From Bacteroidaceae bacterium (lineage in GTDB: Bacteria > Bacteroidota > Bacteroidia > Bacteroidales > Bacteroidaceae), in NCBI GenBank assembly GCA_024401275.1, contig JAKSLJ010000002.1, positions 62,001 to 126,000 of the forward strand: a stretch of 64,000 nt of DNA, written 5' to 3'. How positions within the stretch are numbered: the first letter of the stretch is position 1; each line of letters starts with the position of its first letter. Below the pieces are notes generated by a model. It saw only the letters and a program-made list of their open reading frames with translations, was not told where the DNA came from and made no database searches. Made by a program: the position numbers and the translations under genes. This document shows positions 12,323 through 50,637 of this stretch, one piece after another.

Positions 12323-12360
12323 GAAAATCCCCCATAATTTTCATTAAGGGGGAGAATTTT
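12323..12360 (-). terminator. Terminator after the small membrane protein gene
   Basis: Arms GAAAATCCCCC and GGGGGAGAATTTT (plus strand) pair around an AT-rich loop; on the minus strand the stem is followed by TTTTCATT. It overlaps the 3' end of the small membrane protein gene. Confidence 0.6.
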
Positions 12361-12811
12361 AAGATTTTTTAATAAGATTGGCTATTCTATGTGTGGTATA
12401 AACCTCCAAAATGGCTGCTATAAGTAGAAATACAATCCAATTATTGTTGATATATTGTGCATAGAAATTGAGCTGCTCGATACTGCCGCAAAAGAATGGA
12501 TAGGCAAAACGGAAAGTCTTTTCCATGAGGAAGATTCCTGCTAGAATAAAAGCTATGTCTCCTATGATCTGAATTTTGCGTATTCTGTTCAAAGTGATGT
12601 CGTTGCCCTCATATTTCTGCAATATCTGCATAAGAGCAAAGCAAATTGCACCAACGAGGAAGATGCAAGCGCCTGTTTTGTGCCAAATTTCTGCTGATTC
12701 AGTTGGTATAATGACAGGTATATCGGCAGCAAGATTAGCCAATGCGCCGATAACCATCATGATTCCTCCCGACAGAAAGATATATGTCTGGGACTTAGTT
12801 AATTCCTTCAT
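12359..12811 (-). CDS. Small integral membrane protein of unknown function
   Basis: 150 residues with four predicted membrane spans (about 9-30, 45-63, 82-98 and 123-140) and a basic C-terminus (HRIANLIKKS). I do not recognise a family. The start overlaps the end of divIC by 17 bp, so the two are translationally linked; a role at the cell envelope or division site is only a guess from that. Confidence 0.7.
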   Translation of the reverse strand: MKELTKSQTYIFLSGGIMMVIGALANLAADIPVIIPTESAEIWHKTGACIFLVGAICFALMQILQKYEGNDITLNRIRKIQIIGDIAFILAGIFLMEKTFRFAYPFFCGSIEQLNFYAQYINNNWIVFLLIAAILEVYTTHRIANLIKKS

Positions 12812-16171: not shown

Positions 16172-16741
16172 ATGAAGAATATTGCTATTTTTGCCTCTGG
16201 ACATGGAACAAATGCCAGAGCGATAATGAAGTATTTCTCTGGCAATGAAGATGTTAAGGTTTCCCTTGTTGTTGCAACAAAGCCTGGAATAGGCGTTATC
16301 GAATTTGCCGCAGAAGCAAACGTCCCTTGCGAAGTCTGCTTGTCAAAGACCGACTTTGGACAGGGCGGTAAACTTGATTCTCTCTTGAAGGAGAACGAGA
16401 TTACTCACATCGTTCTTGCCGGTTGCCTTGCTTTCATACCTGCTTGGCTTACAACGCTTTATGAAGGCAAGATCGTTAATATCCATCCTTCTCTCTTGCC
16501 TAAGTACGGTGGTAAGGGTATGTATGGAGATCGAGTGCACGAAGCGGTTCTTGCAGCAAAGGAAAAAGAGTCGGGAATTACTATCCACATCGTGAACGAA
16601 GAGTTTGACTCTGGTCCTATCATCTTCCAAGCAAAATGCGAGGTAAAGGAAGACGATACTCCGGATTCACTTGCCACACGCATTCATGCACTTGAGCATA
16701 AACACTTCCCAGAAGTAATTGAGAAGTGGGTGATGGAGTAA
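16172..16741 (+). CDS. purN: Phosphoribosylglycinamide formyltransferase
   Basis: Transfers a formyl group from 10-formyl-THF to GAR in purine synthesis. The 189-residue protein shows the N-terminal ASGHGTNARAI loop, the catalytic NIHPSLLPKYGG (about 108-119) and DSGPIIFQ (Asp near 146), all expected of PurN. It is coupled to asnA with an 8-bp gap. The stop codon merges into a GC-rich palindromic element, and a strong bidirectional terminator follows. Confidence 0.95.
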   Translation: MKNIAIFASGHGTNARAIMKYFSGNEDVKVSLVVATKPGIGVIEFAAEANVPCEVCLSKTDFGQGGKLDSLLKENEITHIVLAGCLAFIPAWLTTLYEGKIVNIHPSLLPKYGGKGMYGDRVHEAVLAAKEKESGITIHIVNEEFDSGPIIFQAKCEVKEDDTPDSLATRIHALEHKHFPEVIEKWVME

Positions 16742-16780
16742 AAGCCCACCCAAGCCCTCCCGAATGGAGGGATGTTTAAT
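16741..16780 (+). repeat. Gene-boundary palindromic element, copy A
   Basis: AAAGCCCACCCAAG leads into a CCCTCCC...GGAGGGA hairpin and ends ATGTTTAAT. The first A is the last base of the purN stop codon. The layout is shared with copies at 16882, 32949, 33069, 48296, 48371 and 49148. Confidence 0.75.
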
Positions 16781-16814
16781 AGAATTGTAGGTTTATTGGA
16801 ACCAGATTAACTAA

Positions 16815-16881: not shown

Positions 16882-16974
16882 TATTAAAAGTTCCCCCTTG
16901 TGCTGCGCATCCTTTCGGACTCGCAATCGCTCGCGACTGGCCTTCGGCAAGTTTGGGGGCTAGGGGGCTACTTT
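16882..16974 (-). repeat. Gene-boundary palindromic element, copy B (with about 50-nt insert)
   Basis: On the minus strand AGCCCCCTAGCCCCC directly follows the htpG stop, and CAAGGGGGAACTTTTAAT closes the element, nearly identical to copy C at 48296. Between the arms lies about 50 nt of unrelated GC-rich sequence. Confidence 0.7.
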
Positions 16975-18833
16975 AACAATTCCAGTGATCGCTTAATGAA
17001 CTTCTCGAGCTGTGCGCCCTTGAGAAGATTGTTCTGAAGGAGAGCGAGGTCGATAACCTGAGAGAGTTTCTCTTCGTTGGTAGGAGTTTCAACCTTCTCC
17101 TGAATTTCAGCCATCCAACCCTTGATAAGCTTGTTCTCTGTATTTACTACAACAGTATAAGAGTCTGGCATTTGACCATAGAAGCCCATGCCGCTTTGGA
17201 ACTTGCTCATGTCCTTCATGCGTCGCATCCACTCGTTTTGTGTGATGATGAGCGGAGTCTGTTCGTCAGACATAGGCTGGAAGTCAACGGCAAAGTCAAC
17301 CTTATCCATCTTTGGCATCATGTTCTTCATAGCCTCTGAGAGAGTCTTTGTCTGCTCTTCTGTAAGGTCGGCTTTCTTCGCTTCTTCCTTGACAATCAAG
17401 CGGTCGGCAATGTCTGAGTCAACTCGAACGAAGCGAGTCTTCTCAAGTTTCTGCTCAAGCATTGATGCTGCCGGAACGTCAAGCTGTCCGTCAAGGTTGA
17501 GTACGCTGTAGCCCTTTGCCTTAGCAGCTTCAACGAATGAGTACTGCTCTTCCTTGTTATCCGTGTAGAGATAAACAAGGTTTCCGTCCTTGTCAGTCTG
17601 CTCTGAAGAGATGAGTGTCTTGTACTCTTCGAGAGTGAATGCCTTGTCCTCAACATCCTTTACGAGACAGAAATCCTTTGCACGGTTGTAGAAGTCCTCC
17701 TGAGAAAGCATTCCGTAGTTGATGAAAAGCTTCAGGTCGTTCCACTTCTCTTCGAAATCCTTGCGGTCGTCCTTGAAGAGCTGGTTCAGACGGTCAGCAA
17801 CCTTCTTTGTGATATATGTGGAAATCTTCTTCACATCACGGTCGCTCTGGAGGTAAGAACGGCTAACATTCAGCGGAATGTCCGGAGAATCAATCACGCC
17901 ATGAAGGAGAGTAAGGAACTCTGGCACGATGCCGTCAACTTGGTCAGTAACGAACACTTGGTTGCAATAGAGCTGAATCTTGCCTTTCTGGAGGTCAACG
18001 CTTGAGTTAACGCGAGGGAAGTAGAGAATACCAGTGAGGTTAAATGGATAGTCAACATTGAGGTGAATCCAGAAAAGAGGATCATCCTGCATAGGGTAGA
18101 GTAGGTGGTAGAACTTCTTGTAGTCTTCGTCTGTGAGAGAAGAAGGAGTCTTTGCCCACATTGGCTCATTGCCGTTTATTACGTTGTCTTCCTCTGTTTC
18201 AACCTGCTTGCCTTCCTTCCATTCTGTCTTCTTTCCGAATACGATGTTCACTGGCATGAAGAGACAGTATTTCTTCAGCAGGCCTTCAATCTTGTCCTTC
18301 TCAAGAAACTCCTTGCAGTCCTCGGCAATGTGGAGAATGATGTCTGTTCCGCGACCTTCCTTCTCTGCGTCAGAGAGCTCGTATTCAGGCGAACCGTCGC
18401 AACTCCATTTCACAGCCTTTGAGCCTTCCTTATAGCTCTTAGTGATGATTTCCACCTTGTCGCTGACCATGAATGAACTGTAGAAGCCAAGTCCGAAATG
18501 ACCAATAATGGCATTTGCCGAGTCCTTGTATTTCTCAATGAAGTCAGTAACGCCAGAGAACGCAATCTGGTTAATGTATTTCTCAATCTCCTCTTCAGTC
18601 ATACCGATACCGCGGTCAGAGATTGTTATTGTTCCAGCATCCTTGTTCAGCGCAACGCGAACGGCAAGGTCTTCGCCTTCGAGTGCGTCTGAGCCGAGGA
18701 TAGTCTTGAGTTTCTGTGTAGCGTCAACAGCGTTGGAAACCATCTCGCGAAGAAAGATTTCGTGATCGCTGTATAAGAATTTTTTGATTACCGGGAAGAT
18801 GTTCTCGGTGGTTACTCCAATATTTCCTTTCAT
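16968..18833 (-). CDS. htpG: Molecular chaperone HtpG (Hsp90)
   Basis: An ATP-dependent cytosolic chaperone. The 621-residue protein has the GHKL ATPase domain with FLREMVSNAVDAT (28-40), TISDRGIGMTEEEI, IGHFGLGFYSSFMV and GRGTDIILHI, then the middle and C-terminal dimerisation domains. The start MKGNIGVTTENIFPVIKKFLYSDHEIF fits homologues. A nested inverted repeat at 18854-18898 overlaps the likely promoter and may be a stress operator. A palindromic element begins at the stop codon. Confidence 0.97.
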   Translation of the reverse strand: MKGNIGVTTENIFPVIKKFLYSDHEIFLREMVSNAVDATQKLKTILGSDALEGEDLAVRVALNKDAGTITISDRGIGMTEEEIEKYINQIAFSGVTDFIEKYKDSANAIIGHFGLGFYSSFMVSDKVEIITKSYKEGSKAVKWSCDGSPEYELSDAEKEGRGTDIILHIAEDCKEFLEKDKIEGLLKKYCLFMPVNIVFGKKTEWKEGKQVETEEDNVINGNEPMWAKTPSSLTDEDYKKFYHLLYPMQDDPLFWIHLNVDYPFNLTGILYFPRVNSSVDLQKGKIQLYCNQVFVTDQVDGIVPEFLTLLHGVIDSPDIPLNVSRSYLQSDRDVKKISTYITKKVADRLNQLFKDDRKDFEEKWNDLKLFINYGMLSQEDFYNRAKDFCLVKDVEDKAFTLEEYKTLISSEQTDKDGNLVYLYTDNKEEQYSFVEAAKAKGYSVLNLDGQLDVPAASMLEQKLEKTRFVRVDSDIADRLIVKEEAKKADLTEEQTKTLSEAMKNMMPKMDKVDFAVDFQPMSDEQTPLIITQNEWMRRMKDMSKFQSGMGFYGQMPDSYTVVVNTENKLIKGWMAEIQEKVETPTNEEKLSQVIDLALLQNNLLKGAQLEKFIKRSLELLK

Positions 18834-31680: not shown

Positions 31681-32949
31681 ATGAAAGTATTAATGTTCGG
31701 TTGGGAGTACCCACCTCACGTATTTGGCGGACTTGCTACTGCTAACTATGGTATCACTCAAGGCCTCAAGGCGCAGAGTGATCTTGAAATAACCCTCTGT
31801 CTGCCACATCCTTTCGGCGACGAGGAGAAGAATGCTGCAAAGATTATCGACCTCGGTAATGTGCCTATCGCATGGCGCGACCCTGCTTGGGATACCGTTG
31901 TGGAGCGAATTGGCACAAAGATGGATCCGCAAATCTATTTCCAGATGCGCGACCATATCTATGCCGACTTCAACTACATGCCTGTAAACGACATGGGTTG
32001 TCTCTATTTCTCTCCTGGTTACACAGGTAATCTGCCAGAGGAAATCAACAACTATTCCATCGTTGCCGGCGTAGTTGCCCGCGCAGAGGAGTTCGACATC
32101 ATCCACGCTCACGACTGGCTCACATATCCTGCCGGCATCCATGCTAAGCAGGTCAGCGGAAAGCCACTCTGTATCCATGTTCATGCAACAGACTTCGACC
32201 GCTCTCGTGGTAACGTAAACCCAACGGTTTACTCTATCGAGAAGAACGGTATGGACAATGCCGACTGCATCATGTGCGTGTCAGAGCTTACACGCCAGAC
32301 AGTCATCAACCATTACCATCAGGATCCAGCGAAGTGCTTTGCCGTACACAATGCCGTTTATCCTCTCAACGAAGAGTATCAGGCTATTCCTCGTCCTGAC
32401 CATACAGGTAAGGAGAAGGTTGTTACCTTCCTTGGTCGTCTGACTATGCAGAAGGGTCCTGAGTATTTCGTGGAAGCTGCAAAGATGGTGCTCGACCGTA
32501 CTCACAACGTACGCTTCTGCATGGCAGGTTCTGGCGATATGATGGAAGCTATGATTCAGATGGTTGCCGATCGCGGTATTGCTGATCGTTTCCACTTCCC
32601 TGGCTTTATGCGCGGAAAGCAGGTTTACGAGTGTCTGAAGGATTCTGACGTTTACGTAATGCCTTCTGTTTCAGAGCCTTTCGGTATCTCTCCACTTGAG
32701 GCTATGCAGTGTGGAACACCTACCATCATCTCTTATCAGTCTGGTTGCGGCGAAATCCTCACCAACTGTATCAAGACAGACTATTGGGACATCCACGCCA
32801 TGGCAGATGCCATCTACTCTATCTGCGCCAACGACTCTCTCTTCGAGTACCTCTCTGTCGAGGGCAAGAAGGAAGTTGACCAGATCACATGGGAGAAGGT
32901 TGGTCTCTGGATTCGCGAACTCTACGATAGAACTTTAGGTTTGAAATAG
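31681..32949 (+). CDS. Glycogen synthase-like glycosyltransferase (GT-B fold)
   Basis: 422 residues beginning MKVLMFGWEYPPHVFGGLATANYGITQGL, the glucose-binding N-terminal loop seen in glycogen/starch synthase-like GT4/GT5 enzymes. Further blocks are IIHAHDWLTYPAGI, VSELTRQTVINHY, VTFLGRLTMQKGPEYFVEAA and the donor-site EPFGISPLEAMQCGTP. Set between a debranching enzyme and a GH57 protein, it most likely elongates glycogen with an NDP-glucose. The stop codon runs straight into palindromic element F. Confidence 0.9.
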   Translation: MKVLMFGWEYPPHVFGGLATANYGITQGLKAQSDLEITLCLPHPFGDEEKNAAKIIDLGNVPIAWRDPAWDTVVERIGTKMDPQIYFQMRDHIYADFNYMPVNDMGCLYFSPGYTGNLPEEINNYSIVAGVVARAEEFDIIHAHDWLTYPAGIHAKQVSGKPLCIHVHATDFDRSRGNVNPTVYSIEKNGMDNADCIMCVSELTRQTVINHYHQDPAKCFAVHNAVYPLNEEYQAIPRPDHTGKEKVVTFLGRLTMQKGPEYFVEAAKMVLDRTHNVRFCMAGSGDMMEAMIQMVADRGIADRFHFPGFMRGKQVYECLKDSDVYVMPSVSEPFGISPLEAMQCGTPTIISYQSGCGEILTNCIKTDYWDIHAMADAIYSICANDSLFEYLSVEGKKEVDQITWEKVGLWIRELYDRTLGLK

Positions 32950-32998
32950 GCCTCTCACCCCTTACCCCCTCCCCATATAATGGGAGGGGGAGGAATTA
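32949..32998 (+). repeat. Gene-boundary palindromic element, copy F
   Basis: Begins at the glycosyltransferase stop (TAG then GCCTCTCACCCC) and forms CCCCCTCCCC-atataat-GGGAGGGGGAGG. It is the mirror partner of copy G, which abuts the next gene. Confidence 0.75.
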
Positions 32999-33068
32999 CC
33001 CTTCAAGGACAGAGGCAATAATAACTATAATTAGAATTTAAGTGATATAACTTCCCCCACAAAATCAT

Positions 33069-33116
33069 ATCACTCCCCCTCCCATTATACGGGGAGGGGG
33101 CTGGGGGGAGAGGCTT
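33069..33116 (-). repeat. Gene-boundary palindromic element, copy G
   Basis: On the minus strand AAGCCTCTCCCCCCAG precedes CCCCTCCCC-gtataat-GGGAGGGGGAG. Its AAGCC end lies 5 bp from the start codon of the GH57-like gene. F and G together form a very large inverted repeat in the 172-bp spacer. Confidence 0.75.
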
Positions 33117-33121
33117 GTATT

Positions 33122-34588
33122 ATGAAAACAATACAATTATATTTTGAGATTCACCAGATAACACATCTCAAGCGCTACCGTTTCTTCGACATCGGTACCG
33201 ACCATTACTACTACGACGACTATGAGAACGAGCGTAGCATCGCTGAGATTGCAGAGCGTTCTTACATGCCTGCTCTCACTACATTCCAGGAAATGATCAA
33301 GGAGAACGGCAAGTTCTTCAAGCTCGCATTCTCTATCTCAGGCGTTGGTATGGAGCAGCTCGAAATGCACGCTCCTCAGGTTATCGCAAAGCTTCAGGAA
33401 CTCAACGACACTGGTTGCGTGGAATTCCTCGCTGAGCCATACTCTCACGGCCTTTCTTCACTCGCTGATCCAGAGTGTTTCGCTGAGGACGTAAAGAAGC
33501 AGGCAGAGAAGATGAAGGAATACTTCGGCAAGTATCCTACTGTACTTCGCAACTCTTCACTCATCTACTCTGACGACATCGCTATGCAGGCTCAGGCTAT
33601 GGGCTTCAAGGGCATGCTCACAGAGGGTGCTAAGCACGTACTCGGTTGGAAGTCTCCACACTATGTATATAGCTCAGCCGTTGCTCCAGACCTCAAGCTC
33701 CTTCTCCGTGATGTAGAGCTTTCTGACGACATCTCTCTCCGCTTCAACAACCCAGAATGGTCTGGCTATCCACTCTTTGCCGACACATACATCCAGCGCA
33801 TAGCAGATACTCCAAAGGAAGAGCAGATCATCAACATCTTCATGGAGCTTTCTGCTCTCGGCATGGCTCAGCCACTCTCTTCAAACATCCTCGACTTCTT
33901 CCGCGCTCTTCCACTCTGCGCAAAGGAGAAGGGCATCGAGTTTGCTACTCCAACAGAAGTGTTCAGCAAGGTAAATGCTGTTGACCATATCTCAGTTCCT
34001 GACACACTCTCATGGGTTGACGAGGAGCGCGACTGCTCTTGCTGGCTTGGCAACAACATGCAGCGCGAGGCGTTCAACAAGCTCTATTCTATTGCTGACC
34101 GCGTACGCATCATGCAGGACCCAGCCATCACTCAGGACTGGTACTATCTCCAGGCTTCAAACAACTTCCGCTTCATGACAACCAAGGCTTCCAACGTAGG
34201 TCTTGACCGCGGCATCTACATCACTCCGTTCGATGCTTTCACAAACTACATGAACATCCTCGGCGACTTCATGCACAGAGTGAAGAGCAAGTTCCAGTCA
34301 CTCGACGACGACGAGCTCAACGATCTTCTCACTACTATCCGCAACCAGGGTGAGGAAATCACAATGAAGGATCAGGAGATTGAGCGCCTCAAGGCAATGA
34401 TCAACAAGATTGCTCCAGACGCACTTGCTGAGAAGAAGCCAGCTGCAAAGAAGGCACCTGCAAAGAAGGCACCTGCAAAGAAAGCCCCAGCGAAAAAGGC
34501 TCCTGCAAAGAAGGTCGAGGCAAAGAAGGTCGAGGCAAAGAAGATTCTCGCTAAGAAGTCAGAAGTAAAGGCAGAAGAAAAGAAGTAA
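33122..34588 (+). CDS. GH57 alpha-amylase-like protein, probably catalytically inactive, with Lys/Ala/Pro-rich tail
   Basis: 488 residues of the GH57 fold: FEIHQITHLKRYRFFDIG at the N-terminus, CVEFLAEPYSHGL (99-111), GFKGMLTEGAKHVLGWKSP (161-179). Active GH57 amylases of this group have FRNTELIY with a nucleophile Glu and FMDYETFGEH with the acid/base Asp. Here these read LRNSSLIY (Ser at 146) and FMELSALGMAQ (240-250), so both catalytic residues appear replaced; HQP is HQI. From about residue 438 to the end the chain is APAKK/VEAKK repeats, highly basic. It is third in the glycogen cluster. I infer a glycogen-binding or regulatory role, not hydrolysis. Confidence 0.85.
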   Translation: MKTIQLYFEIHQITHLKRYRFFDIGTDHYYYDDYENERSIAEIAERSYMPALTTFQEMIKENGKFFKLAFSISGVGMEQLEMHAPQVIAKLQELNDTGCVEFLAEPYSHGLSSLADPECFAEDVKKQAEKMKEYFGKYPTVLRNSSLIYSDDIAMQAQAMGFKGMLTEGAKHVLGWKSPHYVYSSAVAPDLKLLLRDVELSDDISLRFNNPEWSGYPLFADTYIQRIADTPKEEQIINIFMELSALGMAQPLSSNILDFFRALPLCAKEKGIEFATPTEVFSKVNAVDHISVPDTLSWVDEERDCSCWLGNNMQREAFNKLYSIADRVRIMQDPAITQDWYYLQASNNFRFMTTKASNVGLDRGIYITPFDAFTNYMNILGDFMHRVKSKFQSLDDDELNDLLTTIRNQGEEITMKDQEIERLKAMINKIAPDALAEKKPAAKKAPAKKAPAKKAPAKKAPAKKVEAKKVEAKKILAKKSEVKAEEKK

Positions 34589-46817: not shown

Positions 46818-48296
46818 ATGAATTTTTATATTTATAATACTCTTTCCCGCCGCAAGGAAATCTTCAAGCCTATTGCGGAGAACCATGTAGGTATGTATGT
46901 GTGCGGTCCAACCGTTTACGGCGATCCACACCTTGGACACGCTCGTCCTGCAATCACTTTCGACCTTCTTTACCGTTATCTCCAGCACCTCGGCTACAAG
47001 GTGCGCTATGTTCGCAACATAACCGACGTTGGTCATCTTGAGCACGATGCTGACGAAGGCGAGGACAAGATAGCAAAAAAGGCTAAGCTCGAACAGCTTG
47101 AGCCAATGGAAATTGCGCAATATTACACAAACCGTTACCATCAGGCTATGGAAGCTCTCAATGTGCTTCCGCCAAGCATAGAGCCTCACGCAACTGGTCA
47201 TATCATAGAGCAGATTAAGCTTGTTGAAGAGATTATGGCTAACGGCTATGCGTACGAGAGTAATGGCTCGGTTTATTTTGATATTGAGAAATATAACAAA
47301 GACCATAAGTATGGCAAGCTTTCTGGCCGTAATCTTGATGATGTTATCAATAACTCCCGCGAACTCGATGGAGTAGGAGAGAAGAAGAACCAAGTAGATT
47401 TCGCCCTTTGGAAGAAGGCACAGCCAGAGCACATCATGCGTTGGCCATCACCATGGAGCGACGGCTTCCCAGGATGGCATTGCGAATGTACTGCCATGGG
47501 ACGCAAGTATCTTGGCAACCATTTTGATATTCATGGCGGCGGAATGGACCTTGTATTCCCTCACCATGAGTGCGAGATTGCTCAGGCTACGGCTTCTCAG
47601 GGCGACGATATGGTGAAGTACTGGATGCATAACAATATGCTTACCATCAACGGACAGAAGATGGGTAAGTCACTTGGTAACTTCATTACGCTCAACCAGT
47701 TCTTCAATGGCGAGCATGAGCTTCTCACTCAGCCATATTCGCCAATGGTTATCCGTTTCTTCATTCTCTCGGCTCATTATCGCAGCCCTGTTGATTTCTC
47801 AGACGAGGCTCTACAGGCAAGTCAGAAAGGTCTTGACCGTCTGCTTACTGCCATTGCTGATATTGATCGCATCCAGGCAGCGAAGACTACGGACGACGCA
47901 ACGAAGAAGGTCGTTTCTGAGCTGAAACAGAAGTGCTACGATGCAATGAACGACGATATGCAGAGTCAGGTGGTTATCTCCAACCTCTTTGATGCATGCC
48001 GCGTGATAAACTCTCTCGTTGACCATAAGGGAACTATTTCCGAATCAGATCTCGCAGAACTCAAGGAGACTATGAATCTTTTCACTTTCGATATCCTCGG
48101 ATTGAAGAACGAGGCTTCTGGCGGAAATGAAGCCCGCGAGGAAGCTTTTGGAAAAGTTGTTGATATGGTTCTTGAACTTCGTGCTAAGGCTAAAGCAAAC
48201 AAGGATTGGGCAACATCAGACCTTATCCGTGACCAACTTGCAGCTCTTGGTTTCCAAGTAAAGGATACAAAGGACGGAGCAGTTTGGAAACTGTAA
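46818..48296 (+). CDS. cysS: Cysteine-tRNA ligase
   Basis: Charges tRNA-Cys. The 492-residue class I synthetase has the first zinc Cys and HIGH motif in [18 protein letters not shown] (28-45), the zinc-site block [30 protein letters not shown], and the KMSKS variant KMGKSLGN. Its stop codon runs into palindromic element C. dapB and lepB follow in the same direction and may be co-transcribed. Confidence 0.97.
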
Positions 48297-48332
48297 AAGC
48301 CCCCTATCCCCCCCCAAGGGGGAACTTTTAAT
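48296..48332 (+). repeat. Gene-boundary palindromic element, copy C
   Basis: Starts at the cysS stop as AAAGCCCCCTATCC, forms CCCCC-caa-GGGGG and ends AACTTTTAAT. It is nearly the same as the arms of copy B. Confidence 0.75.
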
Positions 48333-48370
48333 ACTTTTTTTGGTAGAATAATTTAACAAATAAAACATAT

Positions 48371-48408
48371 AAACATCCTTCCCTTGGGAAGGCTTGGTTA
48401 GGCTTTTT
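48371..48408 (-). repeat. Gene-boundary palindromic element, copy D
   Basis: On the minus strand AAAAAGCCTAACCAAGCC is followed by CTTCCC-AA-GGGAAG and GATGTTT. The AAAGCC end touches the dapB ATG. Confidence 0.75.
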
Positions 48409-49128
48409 ATGAAAATAGCACTTATTGGCTACGGCAAGATGGGTAAGATGATTGAGCAGATTGCTCTATCTCGCGGCCACGAAATAGTAAGCAAAATAGA
48501 TATCGACAATCAGGAAGACTTTGAGAGCGACGCTTTCGCTTCTGCTGATGTCGCTATCGAGTTCACAACTCCTTGGACTGCATACGATAACTACCTTAAG
48601 GCTTTCGCTAAGAATGTGAAGGTGGTAAGTGGTTCTACTGGTTGGATGAAAGAACATGGCGAGGATGTGAAGAAGCTTTGTACAGAAGGCGGTCAGACTC
48701 TCTTCTGGGCTTCAAACTTCTCTGTAGGTATGGCTATGTTCTCTGCCGTAAACAAGTATCTTGCTAAGCTTATGAACCAGTTCCCACAGTACGACGTTAC
48801 AATGGAGGAAACTCATCACGTTCACAAGCTTGATGCTCCTTCTGGCACAGCCATCACTCTTGCCGAGGGCATCCTTGAAAACCTTGACCGCAAAGAGCGT
48901 TGGGGACTTCACGAGACTGCCGAAGGCGTTCTCCGTATTGACGATCTCCGTCGTGGCGAAGTTCCTGGCATTCATACAATTACATACGACTCTCCTGAAG
49001 AAGACATCATCAAGATTACTCACGACGCTCACTCTCGCAAGGGCTTTGCTCTCGGCGCAGTTCTCGCTGCAGAATATACAGCACAGCACAACGGTATGCT
49101 TACCATGAGCGATCTCTTTGACTTCTAG
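48409..49128 (+). CDS. dapB: 4-hydroxy-tetrahydrodipicolinate reductase
   Basis: Reduces HTPA to tetrahydrodipicolinate in lysine and diaminopimelate synthesis. 239 residues from MKIALIGYGKMGKMIEQ (NAD(P)-binding GYGKMG). Family blocks are FTTPWTAYDNY, SGSTGWMKEH, ASNFSVGMAMF, and the catalytic MEETHHVHKLDAPSGTAITLAEGI. The frame extends 15 bases upstream to a TTG, but that part is palindromic element D, so the ATG is the start. lepB follows 57 bp on. Confidence 0.95.
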   Translation: MKIALIGYGKMGKMIEQIALSRGHEIVSKIDIDNQEDFESDAFASADVAIEFTTPWTAYDNYLKAFAKNVKVVSGSTGWMKEHGEDVKKLCTEGGQTLFWASNFSVGMAMFSAVNKYLAKLMNQFPQYDVTMEETHHVHKLDAPSGTAITLAEGILENLDRKERWGLHETAEGVLRIDDLRRGEVPGIHTITYDSPEEDIIKITHDAHSRKGFALGAVLAAEYTAQHNGMLTMSDLFDF

Positions 49129-49147
49129 AAATAAACTTCCAATCATT

Positions 49148-49185
49148 TTAACATCCTTCCTTTTTTGAAGGCTTGGTTAGACTTT
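49148..49185 (-). repeat. Gene-boundary palindromic element, copy E
   Basis: On the minus strand AAAGTCTAACCAAGCC is followed by TTC-AAAAAA-GGAAGG and ATGTTAAAA. It touches the lepB ATG, just as copy D touches dapB. Confidence 0.75.
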
Positions 49186-50637
49186 ATGAAACCAAAGAAA
49201 CAACCTAATAAGAAGTTACAGTGGGCGAAGTTCATTGTTGTTCTCGTCCTATATCTCCTCTTCCTGTACTGGCTTGAAAGCTGGCTCGGCTTAATCGTCA
49301 TACCATTTATTTTTGACGTATATATAACGAAGAAGATAAATTGGCAATGGTGGAAAGACTCAGAAGGCTTGACTCCACATATCATGTCGTGGGTTGACGC
49401 CATAGTTTTTGCCCTCGTTGCAGTCTATTTTATCAACTTGTTCTTCTTCCAGAACTACGTCATTCCGTCTTCTTCACTTGAGAAATCACTTCTTACTGGC
49501 GACTATCTCTTTGTGAGCAAGGTGAGCTATGGTCCTCGTATTCCTAATACTCCGCTTACGATGCCGCTAACTCAGCACACAATGCCAATCATCAATACGA
49601 AGTCTTACATTGAGTGGCCACAATGGGATTACAAGCGAGCAAAGGGGCTAGGCAAGGTGGAACTAAATGATATTGTAGTCTTCAACTATCCTTCCGGCGA
49701 TACAATAGTTAGCGAATTGAAATATCAGGCTCAGGACTTTTATGGTCTTTGCATGGATCTTGGTATGCAGCAGTATGAGGGAAGTCGTAACATCGACTCG
49801 CTCTCTGCCCAGCAGCAGCGTGATCTTTTCAAGTTTGTTTATGATCTCGGTCATAAAGCCGTTGAGAACAATCCTAACGAGTTTGGTATGATTGATTGGC
49901 GTCCTGTTGACCGACGTGAGAATTATGTAAAGCGTTGTGTTGGTCTTCCTGGTCAAACTCTTCAGATAAAAGATCGCAAAATTTATCTTGACGGTAAGGA
50001 AAACAAGGATCCAGAGAATGCTCAGTTCACTTATAAAGTTGAGCTTGCTATTCCTACAATGAGCTTTGTAGGTGAGGAATTTGATGAGTTCCGTAAGGAA
50101 AATGGCATTACAAACGAGGATCTCCAACAACTTACTTCATATGGTTTCATGCCTATGACAAAGAAGGCAGCTGAGGTCATGAAGTCTCGCAAGGATATAT
50201 GCAAGAGTATTACCATCAATACCGATTCTCCTGCGTGGGGACTTTTCCCACTTACGATGTACACAGGCTGGACTCGCGACAACTACGGACCTATCTGGAT
50301 TCCAAAAAAAGGCGAGAAGATTGACATTGACATCAAGAACATCGGACTCTATGAGCGCTGTATAAAGGAATATGAAGGCAATCAGCTTGAGGTAAAAGAC
50401 AGCAAAATCTACATTAACGGTAAGGAAGCAAAGTCATATACATTCAAGATGGACTACTACTGGATGATGGGTGACAATCGCCATAACTCAGCCGACTCTC
50501 GCTATTGGGGCTTCGTTCCTGAAGATCATATCGTTGGTAAGCCAATCTTCATCTGGTTCTCTTCTGACCCTGATCGCGGAGGCTTCTCTGGTATTCGCTG
50601 GAATCGTCTCTTCCGTTTTGTTGACAATATTAAGTAG
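49186..50637 (+). CDS. lepB: Signal peptidase I
   Basis: Cleaves signal peptides on the outer face of the inner membrane. 483 residues from MKPKKQPNKKLQWAKF, with two N-terminal spans and a third at about 75-95. The catalytic Ser block reads YVIPSSSLEKSLLTGDYLFVSKVSYG (Leu replaces the usual Met after the Ser), and the Lys is in NYVKRCVGLPGQTLQI. GDNRHNSADSRYWGFVPEDHIVG is the C-terminal box. It is about twice the length of many SPases because of a long insert, as is usual in Bacteroidetes. A TTG 21 bases upstream lies in element E and is rejected as a start. Confidence 0.93.
   Translation: MKPKKQPNKKLQWAKFIVVLVLYLLFLYWLESWLGLIVIPFIFDVYITKKINWQWWKDSEGLTPHIMSWVDAIVFALVAVYFINLFFFQNYVIPSSSLEKSLLTGDYLFVSKVSYGPRIPNTPLTMPLTQHTMPIINTKSYIEWPQWDYKRAKGLGKVELNDIVVFNYPSGDTIVSELKYQAQDFYGLCMDLGMQQYEGSRNIDSLSAQQQRDLFKFVYDLGHKAVENNPNEFGMIDWRPVDRRENYVKRCVGLPGQTLQIKDRKIYLDGKENKDPENAQFTYKVELAIPTMSFVGEEFDEFRKENGITNEDLQQLTSYGFMPMTKKAAEVMKSRKDICKSITINTDSPAWGLFPLTMYTGWTRDNYGPIWIPKKGEKIDIDIKNIGLYERCIKEYEGNQLEVKDSKIYINGKEAKSYTFKMDYYWMMGDNRHNSADSRYWGFVPEDHIVGKPIFIWFSSDPDRGGFSGIRWNRLFRFVDNIK

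Follow-up and report, generated by a model that had tools for sequence, protein, structure and literature searches.

Many bacterial genomes carry abundant short palindromes for which no mover is known. According to excerpts of Di Nocera et al. (2013; PMC3733652), the repetitive extragenic palindromic (REP) sequences of the REP/REPIN-RAYT systems lie less than 20 bp from 3' gene ends and can provide stop codons with their own ends, CGTC-tagged REPs are reported without a dedicated transposase and also inside genes, and the palindromic elements of Rickettsia (RPE) are tolerated in frame within proteins. Miniature inverted-repeat transposable elements (MITEs) are gene-less, possess inverted termini and share their ends with a gene-bearing element of the same genome. 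Here we describe seven GC-rich hairpins in a stretch of 64,000 nucleotides (the window) from a Bacteroidaceae bacterium (GenBank assembly GCA_024401275.1, contig JAKSLJ010000002.1, our contig C12, bases 62001-126000; genome of 3.2 Mb in 71 contigs, 91% complete). The bacterium is Prevotella-like, as its closest matches in a named collection were MAGs of Prevotella and Bacteroidaceae. The seven palindromes are probably the terminal hairpins and the cut-down, MITE-like or solo-end copies of small mobile elements that carry a gene for a predicted nuclease with a DUF559 domain.

The hairpins resemble the REP/REPIN-RAYT systems as short, GC-rich, high-copy palindromes that form inverted pairs near gene ends and sometimes supply stop codons, but they carry neither a GTAG nor a CGTC tag; their consensus ends read AAGCC.. 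on one side and ..TTTAATAG, AATTAC or GATATG on the other, they are anchored at gene starts as well, and their partner gene is DUF559. No RAYT gene was directly flanked by window-type palindromes in eight loci. The absence of a RAYT is shared with the CGTC-tagged REPs, whereas the tag is not. MITEs are matched in their inverted termini and in the ends common to a gene-bearing element; the partner here encodes a predicted homing-type nuclease and no known transposase, and the insertions lack host DNA, with no target duplication noticed in the absence of a systematic search. The homing endonuclease I-Bth0305I (PDB 3r3p; molecule name 'Mobile intron protein') is the nearest characterised relative of DUF559, with which it has the fold of the EDxHD catalytic domain and recurrent sites in common. 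I-Bth0305I resides in a group I intron, whereas in the present case Rfam gave no intron RNA, no intein domain was reported and hairpins flank the gene. In-frame copies are shared with the RPE, for which we know of no nuclease partner. Intrinsic terminators differ in that the window-type hairpins are not confined to the 3' side of genes.

All seven hairpins were found at the positions and with the ends that an earlier note on this DNA had given for them. The AAGCC ends and the stems were as described there, but the single common plan that it proposed resolved into three subfamilies. Subfamily A has the form AAGCC(CACCC or TAACC)AAGCC-YTCCC-loop-GGGARGG-ATGTTTAATAG (window copies at 16741, 48371 and 49148), subfamily B the form AAGCCCCCTAGCCCCC-loop-GGGGGAACTTTTAATAG (16882 and 48296) and subfamily C the form AAGCCTCTCCCCCC-(TTA or AG)-CCCCCTCCCC-loop-GGGGAGGGGG-AG.. 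(32949 and 33069). In A and B, the far end runs beyond TTTAAT to ..AATAG and in many copies also includes TTGCGGG. As the same note had stated, the AAGCC end lies at a gene boundary in all seven cases: read from the sequence, it overlaps or touches the stop codons of purN, htpG, cysS and the glycosyltransferase gene, and it lies 5 bp from the ATG of the GH57 gene, 3-4 bp from that of dapB and 0 bp from that of lepB. These gene names agreed with the Pfam domains found, and the spurious TTG starts suspected in two neighbouring reading frames are present in front of dapB (48394) and lepB (49165). The two C-type hairpins (32949..33000 and 33060..33117) represent the stop-end and the start-end of one miniature element.

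Two C-type pairs of the same genome, located outside the window at the places of loci L149 and L150, enclose an open reading frame (ORF) that was assigned to DUF559 (PF04480) by Pfam, as was the 81%-identical protein of locus L181 (loci and genomes are given by our labels L and G; L123 denotes the place of L150 and L125 that of L149). Each of the three DUF559 genes in this genome is bounded by such hairpins on both sides; by reading, the neighbours are trpA and trpB in L148 and the genes of glyA and glutaminyl-tRNA synthetase in L150. The association was quantified by the inverted similarity between 350 bp on either side of the DUF559 domain, with a threshold of at least 16, in 112 loci that comprised the three own genes, the 30 best hits of a genus search (one per genome) and 79 loci from the best 80 of 210, L191 being dropped as too short. 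The threshold was reached in 92 of the 112 loci and in 84 of 103 once near-identical loci were removed. Among the controls, it was reached by 2 of 321 genes irrespective of size, by none of 70 genes comparable in size and by none of 214 shifted windows. By reading, A ends bound the DUF559 gene in L302 (G028), with a close variant in L299 (G034), B ends those in L148, L294 and L295, and C ends those in L149, L150, L291 and L296; other C-rich end variants also occur around DUF559. In 113 of 114 distinct loci the left neighbour has the same orientation as the DUF559 gene, and for the right neighbour this is true of 99 of 110, against a baseline of 245 of 322 neighbours in a sample of the genome. 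The DUF559 gene is the only partner gene seen between such ends, and the size of a complete element, approximately 0.5-0.7 kb, would leave little room for a second enzyme gene. Moreover, the C-type miniatures share their inverted termini with the gene-bearing elements L149 and L150 of the same genome.

An alignment of 38 DUF559 proteins contained 20 invariant columns, including E43, Q62-H63, D71, E82, D84, H88, D97 and R100, that is, acidic and histidine residues of the kind used by nucleases of this type. The AlphaFold2 model (mean pLDDT, the predicted confidence per residue, 80.7) matched PDB 3hrl (1.1e-5), I-Bth0305I (1.5e-4) and, weakly, Vsr (0.066-0.12) in Foldseek, and a profile search gave 1.7e-27 for 3hrl and 3.3e-7 for I-Bth0305I. 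With regard to the model and these matches, DUF559 is taken as a predicted nuclease of the EDxHD/Vsr type; one DUF559 gene is assigned to the EDxHD homing endonuclease family in the excerpted text of PMC9403480. A match to anti-phage defence systems in PADLOC was weak only (4e-4), and this candidate role was set aside. DUF559 was detected in 87 of 150 genomes of the genus and in 78 of 148 genomes of the phylum. Among 108 distinct proteins, near-identical loci being removed, 65 belong to 16 shared insertion sites with up to 14 distinct loci per site, and the proteins cluster by site, with 25 changes on the tree compared with a mean of 46.8 and a minimum of 42 in 300 shuffles (27 compared with a mean of 59 when duplicate loci were kept). 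No account of DUF559 together with palindromes was found in the open-access literature searched, most subscription papers lying outside the reach of that search.

Pattern searches of the own genome, allowing up to two mismatches and using the reversed pattern as control, yielded 45 matches for A (control: 1), 40 for the B tail (control: 0) and 53 for the C end; the latter are partly due to chance, since the control gave 7. The position of the hairpins was analysed in 455 kb of the genome that were chosen without regard to elements, with genes called by a simple purpose-made hexamer caller. This sample contained 65 hairpins of the pyrimidine/purine GC type, 44 of them intergenic, and 32 of these could be oriented from the C-rich linker alone. 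The linker side was closer to a gene in 29 of the 32 (sign test, 2.6e-6) and within 25 bp of a coding sequence in 26, whereas random placement (10,000 trials) brought 6.4 of them within this distance on average and 15 at most. The six oriented hairpins beyond 25 bp comprise, by reading, four apparently unrelated hairpins and two element copies at 28 and 30 bp. Spacers with one oriented hairpin had the linker side closer in 13 of 16 cases, and all eight spacers with two oriented elements combined one stop end with one start end. A second set of 30 among the 40 B-type matches contained 27 intergenic copies, 25 of them within 25 bp and all 27 with the linker side closer to the gene.

Of the 30 C-type ends in loci L118-L146, 29 are situated no more than 40 bp from a coding end. 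Twelve of 16 stop-side ends possess the TTA linker, compared with none of 13 start-side ends (Fisher, 6e-5); the tails divide less cleanly, with 10 S, one T and five unclassed on the stop side and nine T, one S and three unclassed on the start side. The split of linker and tail therefore indicates that the unit is polar, its stop-end differing from its start-end. A start codon is located on the linker side of 10 of the 32 oriented hairpins and of 13 of the 30 C-type ends. An invertible promoter is not favoured, as stop-end and start-end types mostly stay on their own side. Within called genes, 21 of the 65 sample hairpins were found, and 13 of these are element copies read through in frame (by eye). 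The preference for gene boundaries thus holds in both sets in the sense that the AAGCC end points to the nearer gene (29 of 32 and 27 of 27), but the rule is not absolute because of the in-frame copies inside genes.

Orthologous junctions were compared between species at two sites. At the korA-korB junction (30 loci and L167; gene names by reading; L278 showed no korA), five loci are filled, namely L261, L262, L264, L267 and L167, and L276 has a longer, AT-rich spacer free of an element. A typical unfilled junction reads ..EAL-KKVM-stop-GCT-ATG-DRNQIVQPENI-VCKK, whereas in the filled loci an element stands in place of the end of korA, the spacer and the codons with which korB usually begins, so that the korA stop codon and an in-frame korB ATG both lie within the element. 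The left end falls one to four codons past EAL and varies between species, and L262 and L167 retain six korB codons that are absent from the other three filled loci.

The glycosyltransferase-GH57 junction, which corresponds to the C-type spacer of the window, was examined in 30 loci, 29 of them with the glycosyltransferase gene upstream. Nine of the 29 spacers, including that of the own genome, are filled with an element of this general plan, and 20 are unfilled and measure 18-90 bp with a median of 43. Besides the own genome, the filled loci are G120, where only a stop-end is present, and seven further ones with elements of several types, three or four of them with a common interior. The stop codon marks the beginning of the element in each of the nine, and elements with a start-end leave 4-11 bp up to the ATG (by eye). 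As the whole story, simple insertion into tight spacers was rejected, since the unfilled spacers consist of 18-90 bp of native DNA that is gone from the filled alleles. In some relatives, no more than 3-4 bp separate dapB and lepB. G120 (L086), the closest of the relatives sampled, does not show empty sites: its cysS-dapB and dapB-lepB spacers hold quite different, AT-richer inverted repeats. These repeats likewise stretch almost from stop to start. The G120 contig and the sample have a common stretch of three genes only, with approximately 80-87% DNA identity.

Copying within a genome is evident from the C-type miniatures L129 and L133, which lie between unrelated gene pairs and are 98% identical in their interiors and 52% identical (background) outside. 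Additionally, the A-type pattern is distributed patchily among 60 surveyed genomes, with 66, 33, 11 and 4 copies in four of them and 0-1 in each of the others. The description of the palindromes as a dispersed element in the earlier note is borne out by these miniatures and by orthologous junctions that occur both filled and unfilled.

Together with hairpin-encoded peptides, DUF559 interrupts an ABC-F protein (L168) and an AAA helicase (L171) in the genus, and leucyl-tRNA synthetase (LeuRS; L351, L353 and L375), MetH (L364 and L369) and HsdR (L356) elsewhere in the phylum. In other loci, by reading, DUF559 is fused in frame ahead of guanylate kinase-, ArgB-, RNase H- and TrmH-like proteins. 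An intein (Hint) domain was absent from two interrupted proteins at E<=0.001 and from six interrupted proteins at E<=1e-10, a cutoff that would hide weak matches, and no intron RNA or other Rfam family was found at gathering scores in the window and 18 loci; a known RNA family was rejected on these grounds. Several palindromes lie in frame within each of two called genes of the own genome (C1:28518-29798 and C67:13630-15813), where they read SPTGGGVGGG or SPTPTLPPVGG. The dapB matches of two relatives (G034:C27:12373-13215 and G096:C17:15865-16683) are split by approximately 130 bp in one open frame, which suggests an in-frame insert in dapB.

The data can be combined in the following model. 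A complete element consists of a stop-end hairpin with AAGCC.. pointing outward, one DUF559 ORF and a start-end hairpin with ..GGCTT pointing outward, oriented in the direction of transcription of the preceding gene. The predicted nuclease would recognise the hairpins or the junction and cut the DNA at a gene junction or close to it; repair would copy in the element or a miniature with the same ends, whereby the native spacer between the two coding ends would often be lost, either at once or over repeated rounds. The neighbouring genes would survive because the ends, being translatable, contain both stop codons and ATGs, such that the element can provide the stop of the left gene and the start of the right gene. 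Selection would then retain those insertions that leave both neighbours working, with ends that abut stops and starts or, more rarely, lie in frame within a gene, and it is selection rather than targeting that may set the boundary position.

The earlier note had suggested a defined target choice in view of the boundary rule. Such a choice is not evident, given the korA-korB end codons that vary by species, the missing host DNA and the in-frame copies in genes, and the boundary rule is explained at least as well by selection for intact neighbours. A processing or translation signal, also considered there, applies solely in that an element can supply the stop and start codons of its neighbours. 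That the rule is stricter than for ordinary REPs does not hold at stop codons, given the REP positions and REP-supplied stops in the excerpts of PMC3733652 cited above, and what sets the hairpins apart is that they are also anchored at start codons and show a stop-end/start-end polarity.

Several observations weigh against a DUF559 element as the source of the palindromes. That DUF559 mobilises them is a step that we infer from correlation and from the predicted fold. The own genome contains three DUF559 genes and more than 100 hairpins by pattern counts; 19 of the 103 distinct loci remain below the flank threshold, including the own L148 (14.0) and the in-frame L168 (8.5), and the start-end of the own L150 is located off the boundary, 225 bp from the next called gene. 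The DUF559 loci were picked by similarity and not at random. Across the phylum the association is weaker, with 11 of 28 scored loci (30 kept) at the threshold, and of eight loci examined among 35 records found in a plasmid collection three reached it, in Sphingomonas, Deinococcus and Azospirillum lipoferum, with one shifted control of this set scoring 18.5; a Synechocystis plasmid locus scored 12.5, yet has matching C-rich hairpins, and the remaining four show GC palindromes on one side only (both by eye). No target-site duplication is apparent at the korA-korB and glycosyltransferase-GH57 junctions, both of which lack host DNA, although such duplications were not sought systematically. In 28 pairs of C-type miniatures the median identity of the interiors was 0.59 compared with 0.55 for the flanks, and since the interiors hardly exceed the flanks, most of these miniatures are either old or not one unit but of mixed make-up. 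Finally, clustering of the proteins by site fits homing, but could also reflect plain vertical inheritance.

The excess of hairpins over DUF559 genes would also be expected if DUF559 were a passenger homing endonuclease gene in pre-existing palindromic dimers that a RAYT or another transposase moves in trans. We consider this unlikely, although matches to Y1_Tnp, the RAYT-type domain, exist in the own genome (four at E<=0.001) and in G034, G028 and G011 (four together), and in L054 approximately 0.5 kb separate a B-type pair from the Y1_Tnp gene. The A-type model gave no match at these eight Y1_Tnp loci, while B and C ends were checked there by reading only; four of the loci (L051, L052, L081 and L082) carry quite different palindromes directly around the Y1_Tnp gene (by reading), and A, B, C and other C-rich end types were each found around DUF559. 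A RAYT origin was rejected on the basis of the eight loci, within the stated limits for B and C. A second palindrome family (TTGTAGGGCGAACATTTGTGAGCCG...) occurs in some spacer interiors (L052, L005 and L136) and also flanks the Y1_Tnp gene of L052; a RAYT-type repeat is therefore nested in or beside the DUF559-type ones.

Genuine target specificity, in which an enzyme or complex recognises the stop/start junction by its sequence or by a transcription-linked structure and inserts there, would account for the reuse of the same junctions across species at the 16 shared sites and for the several element types in the glycosyltransferase-GH57 spacer, but it is difficult to reconcile with korA-korB end points several codons apart between species and with in-frame insertions deep in the LeuRS, MetH, HsdR, ABC-F and helicase genes, and we give it little credence. 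Less probable still are host-beneficial RNA elements, such as terminators, mRNA stabilisers or translation-coupling hairpins, that are kept by function and need no mobility. The strict position, the stems that are conserved though the subfamily sequences differ, the frequent location between co-directional genes and the potential of pairs to fold across the spacer would suit such a role; the patchy occurrence of the A type, the unfilled alleles with short spacers, the near-identical miniature at two unrelated loci, the in-frame copies within genes and the lack of an Rfam family argue against it. A chance likeness of GC-rich terminators, to which some copies 3' of stop codons with T-rich tails might point, is hardly conceivable in view of the pattern counts versus reversed controls, the start-side copies and the shared interior. 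A mobile DUF559 element remains the most probable source of the seven palindromes.

The features of the window are compiled in Table 1; the identities of the host genes were checked with Pfam. In the B-type hairpin at htpG the loop is swapped for a GC-rich insert of approximately 55 bp (16895-16955; TTGCCGAAGGCC...GCGCAGCACAAG), and a nearly identical B-loop insert occurs in L384, L397 and L054:170-250. A further hairpin (TCCCCC..GGGGGA; 12328-12353), which is loosely B-like, lies 5 bp off the stop codon of the gene 12359-12811. In L003, L008, L013, L016 and L024 the 5' module (AAGCCCACCCAA or AGCCTAACCAG) is present in two to three tandem copies on the side of the hairpin that faces the gene, as though earlier ends had been overrun. 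The elements in L002, L005, L007 and L017 adjoin near-duplicate ORFs of 133 amino acids that, by reading, resemble HU-type DNA-binding proteins.

Table 1. Hairpin ends, miniature element and host genes in the window (positions refer to the window)
Feature	Position	Strand	Remark
A-type stop-side end at purN stop	16741..16790	+	AAGCCCACCCAAGCC-hairpin-ATGTTTAATAG
B-type end at htpG stop	16882..16974	-	element letters make up part of the htpG stop codon
C-type stop-end after glycosyltransferase stop	32949..33000	+	linker TTA, tail AGGAATTA
C-type start-end	33060..33117	-	tail AGTGATATGATTTTG; 5 bp ahead of the GH57 ATG
Complete C-type miniature (MITE-like) element	32950..33121	+	occupies the entire glycosyltransferase-GH57 spacer
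B-type stop-end at cysS stop	48296..48334	+	
A-type start-end	48361..48408	-	AAGCCTAACCAAGCC-hairpin-ATGTTTA; immediately 5' of the dapB ATG
Diverged A-type start-end	49142..49185	-	touches the lepB ATG
purN, host gene	16172..16741	+	Pfam formyl transferase
htpG, host gene	16968..18833	-	Pfam HSP90
Glycosyltransferase gene, host gene	31681..32949	+	Pfam
GH57 gene, host gene	33122..34588	+	Pfam
cysS, host gene	46818..48296	+	Pfam cysteinyl-tRNA synthetase
dapB, host gene	48409..49128	+	Pfam DapB; start in the ORF list is a TTG within the element
lepB-like signal peptidase gene, host gene	49186..50637	+	Pfam signal peptidase S26

Such elements were seen in Bacteroidota; Alphaproteobacteria and Deinococcus provided further examples, and cyanobacteria probably contain them too. 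In a broader and more tentative reading, to which we assign somewhat less than an even chance, DUF559 is the missing mobility enzyme of RAYT-less palindromic repeats and defines a separate, widespread class of elements, in which a hairpin-ended homing-type nuclease of the Vsr/EDxHD kind invades gene junctions as well as, in frame, loops of essential genes, takes the place of the junction, re-supplies stops and starts and spawns miniatures that fill many operon spacers. If true, this would provide a role for DUF559, which Pfam lists as a 'protein of unknown function', and would account for odd N- and C-terminal extensions, for guanylate-kinase-like fusions and for the in-frame inserts of LeuRS and MetH. 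Spurious gene starts inside such elements call for caution in genome annotation. Moreover, a nuclease element may explain the spread of such repeats without a transposase, and the partner nuclease opens the question of the mover to testing for this class of palindromes.

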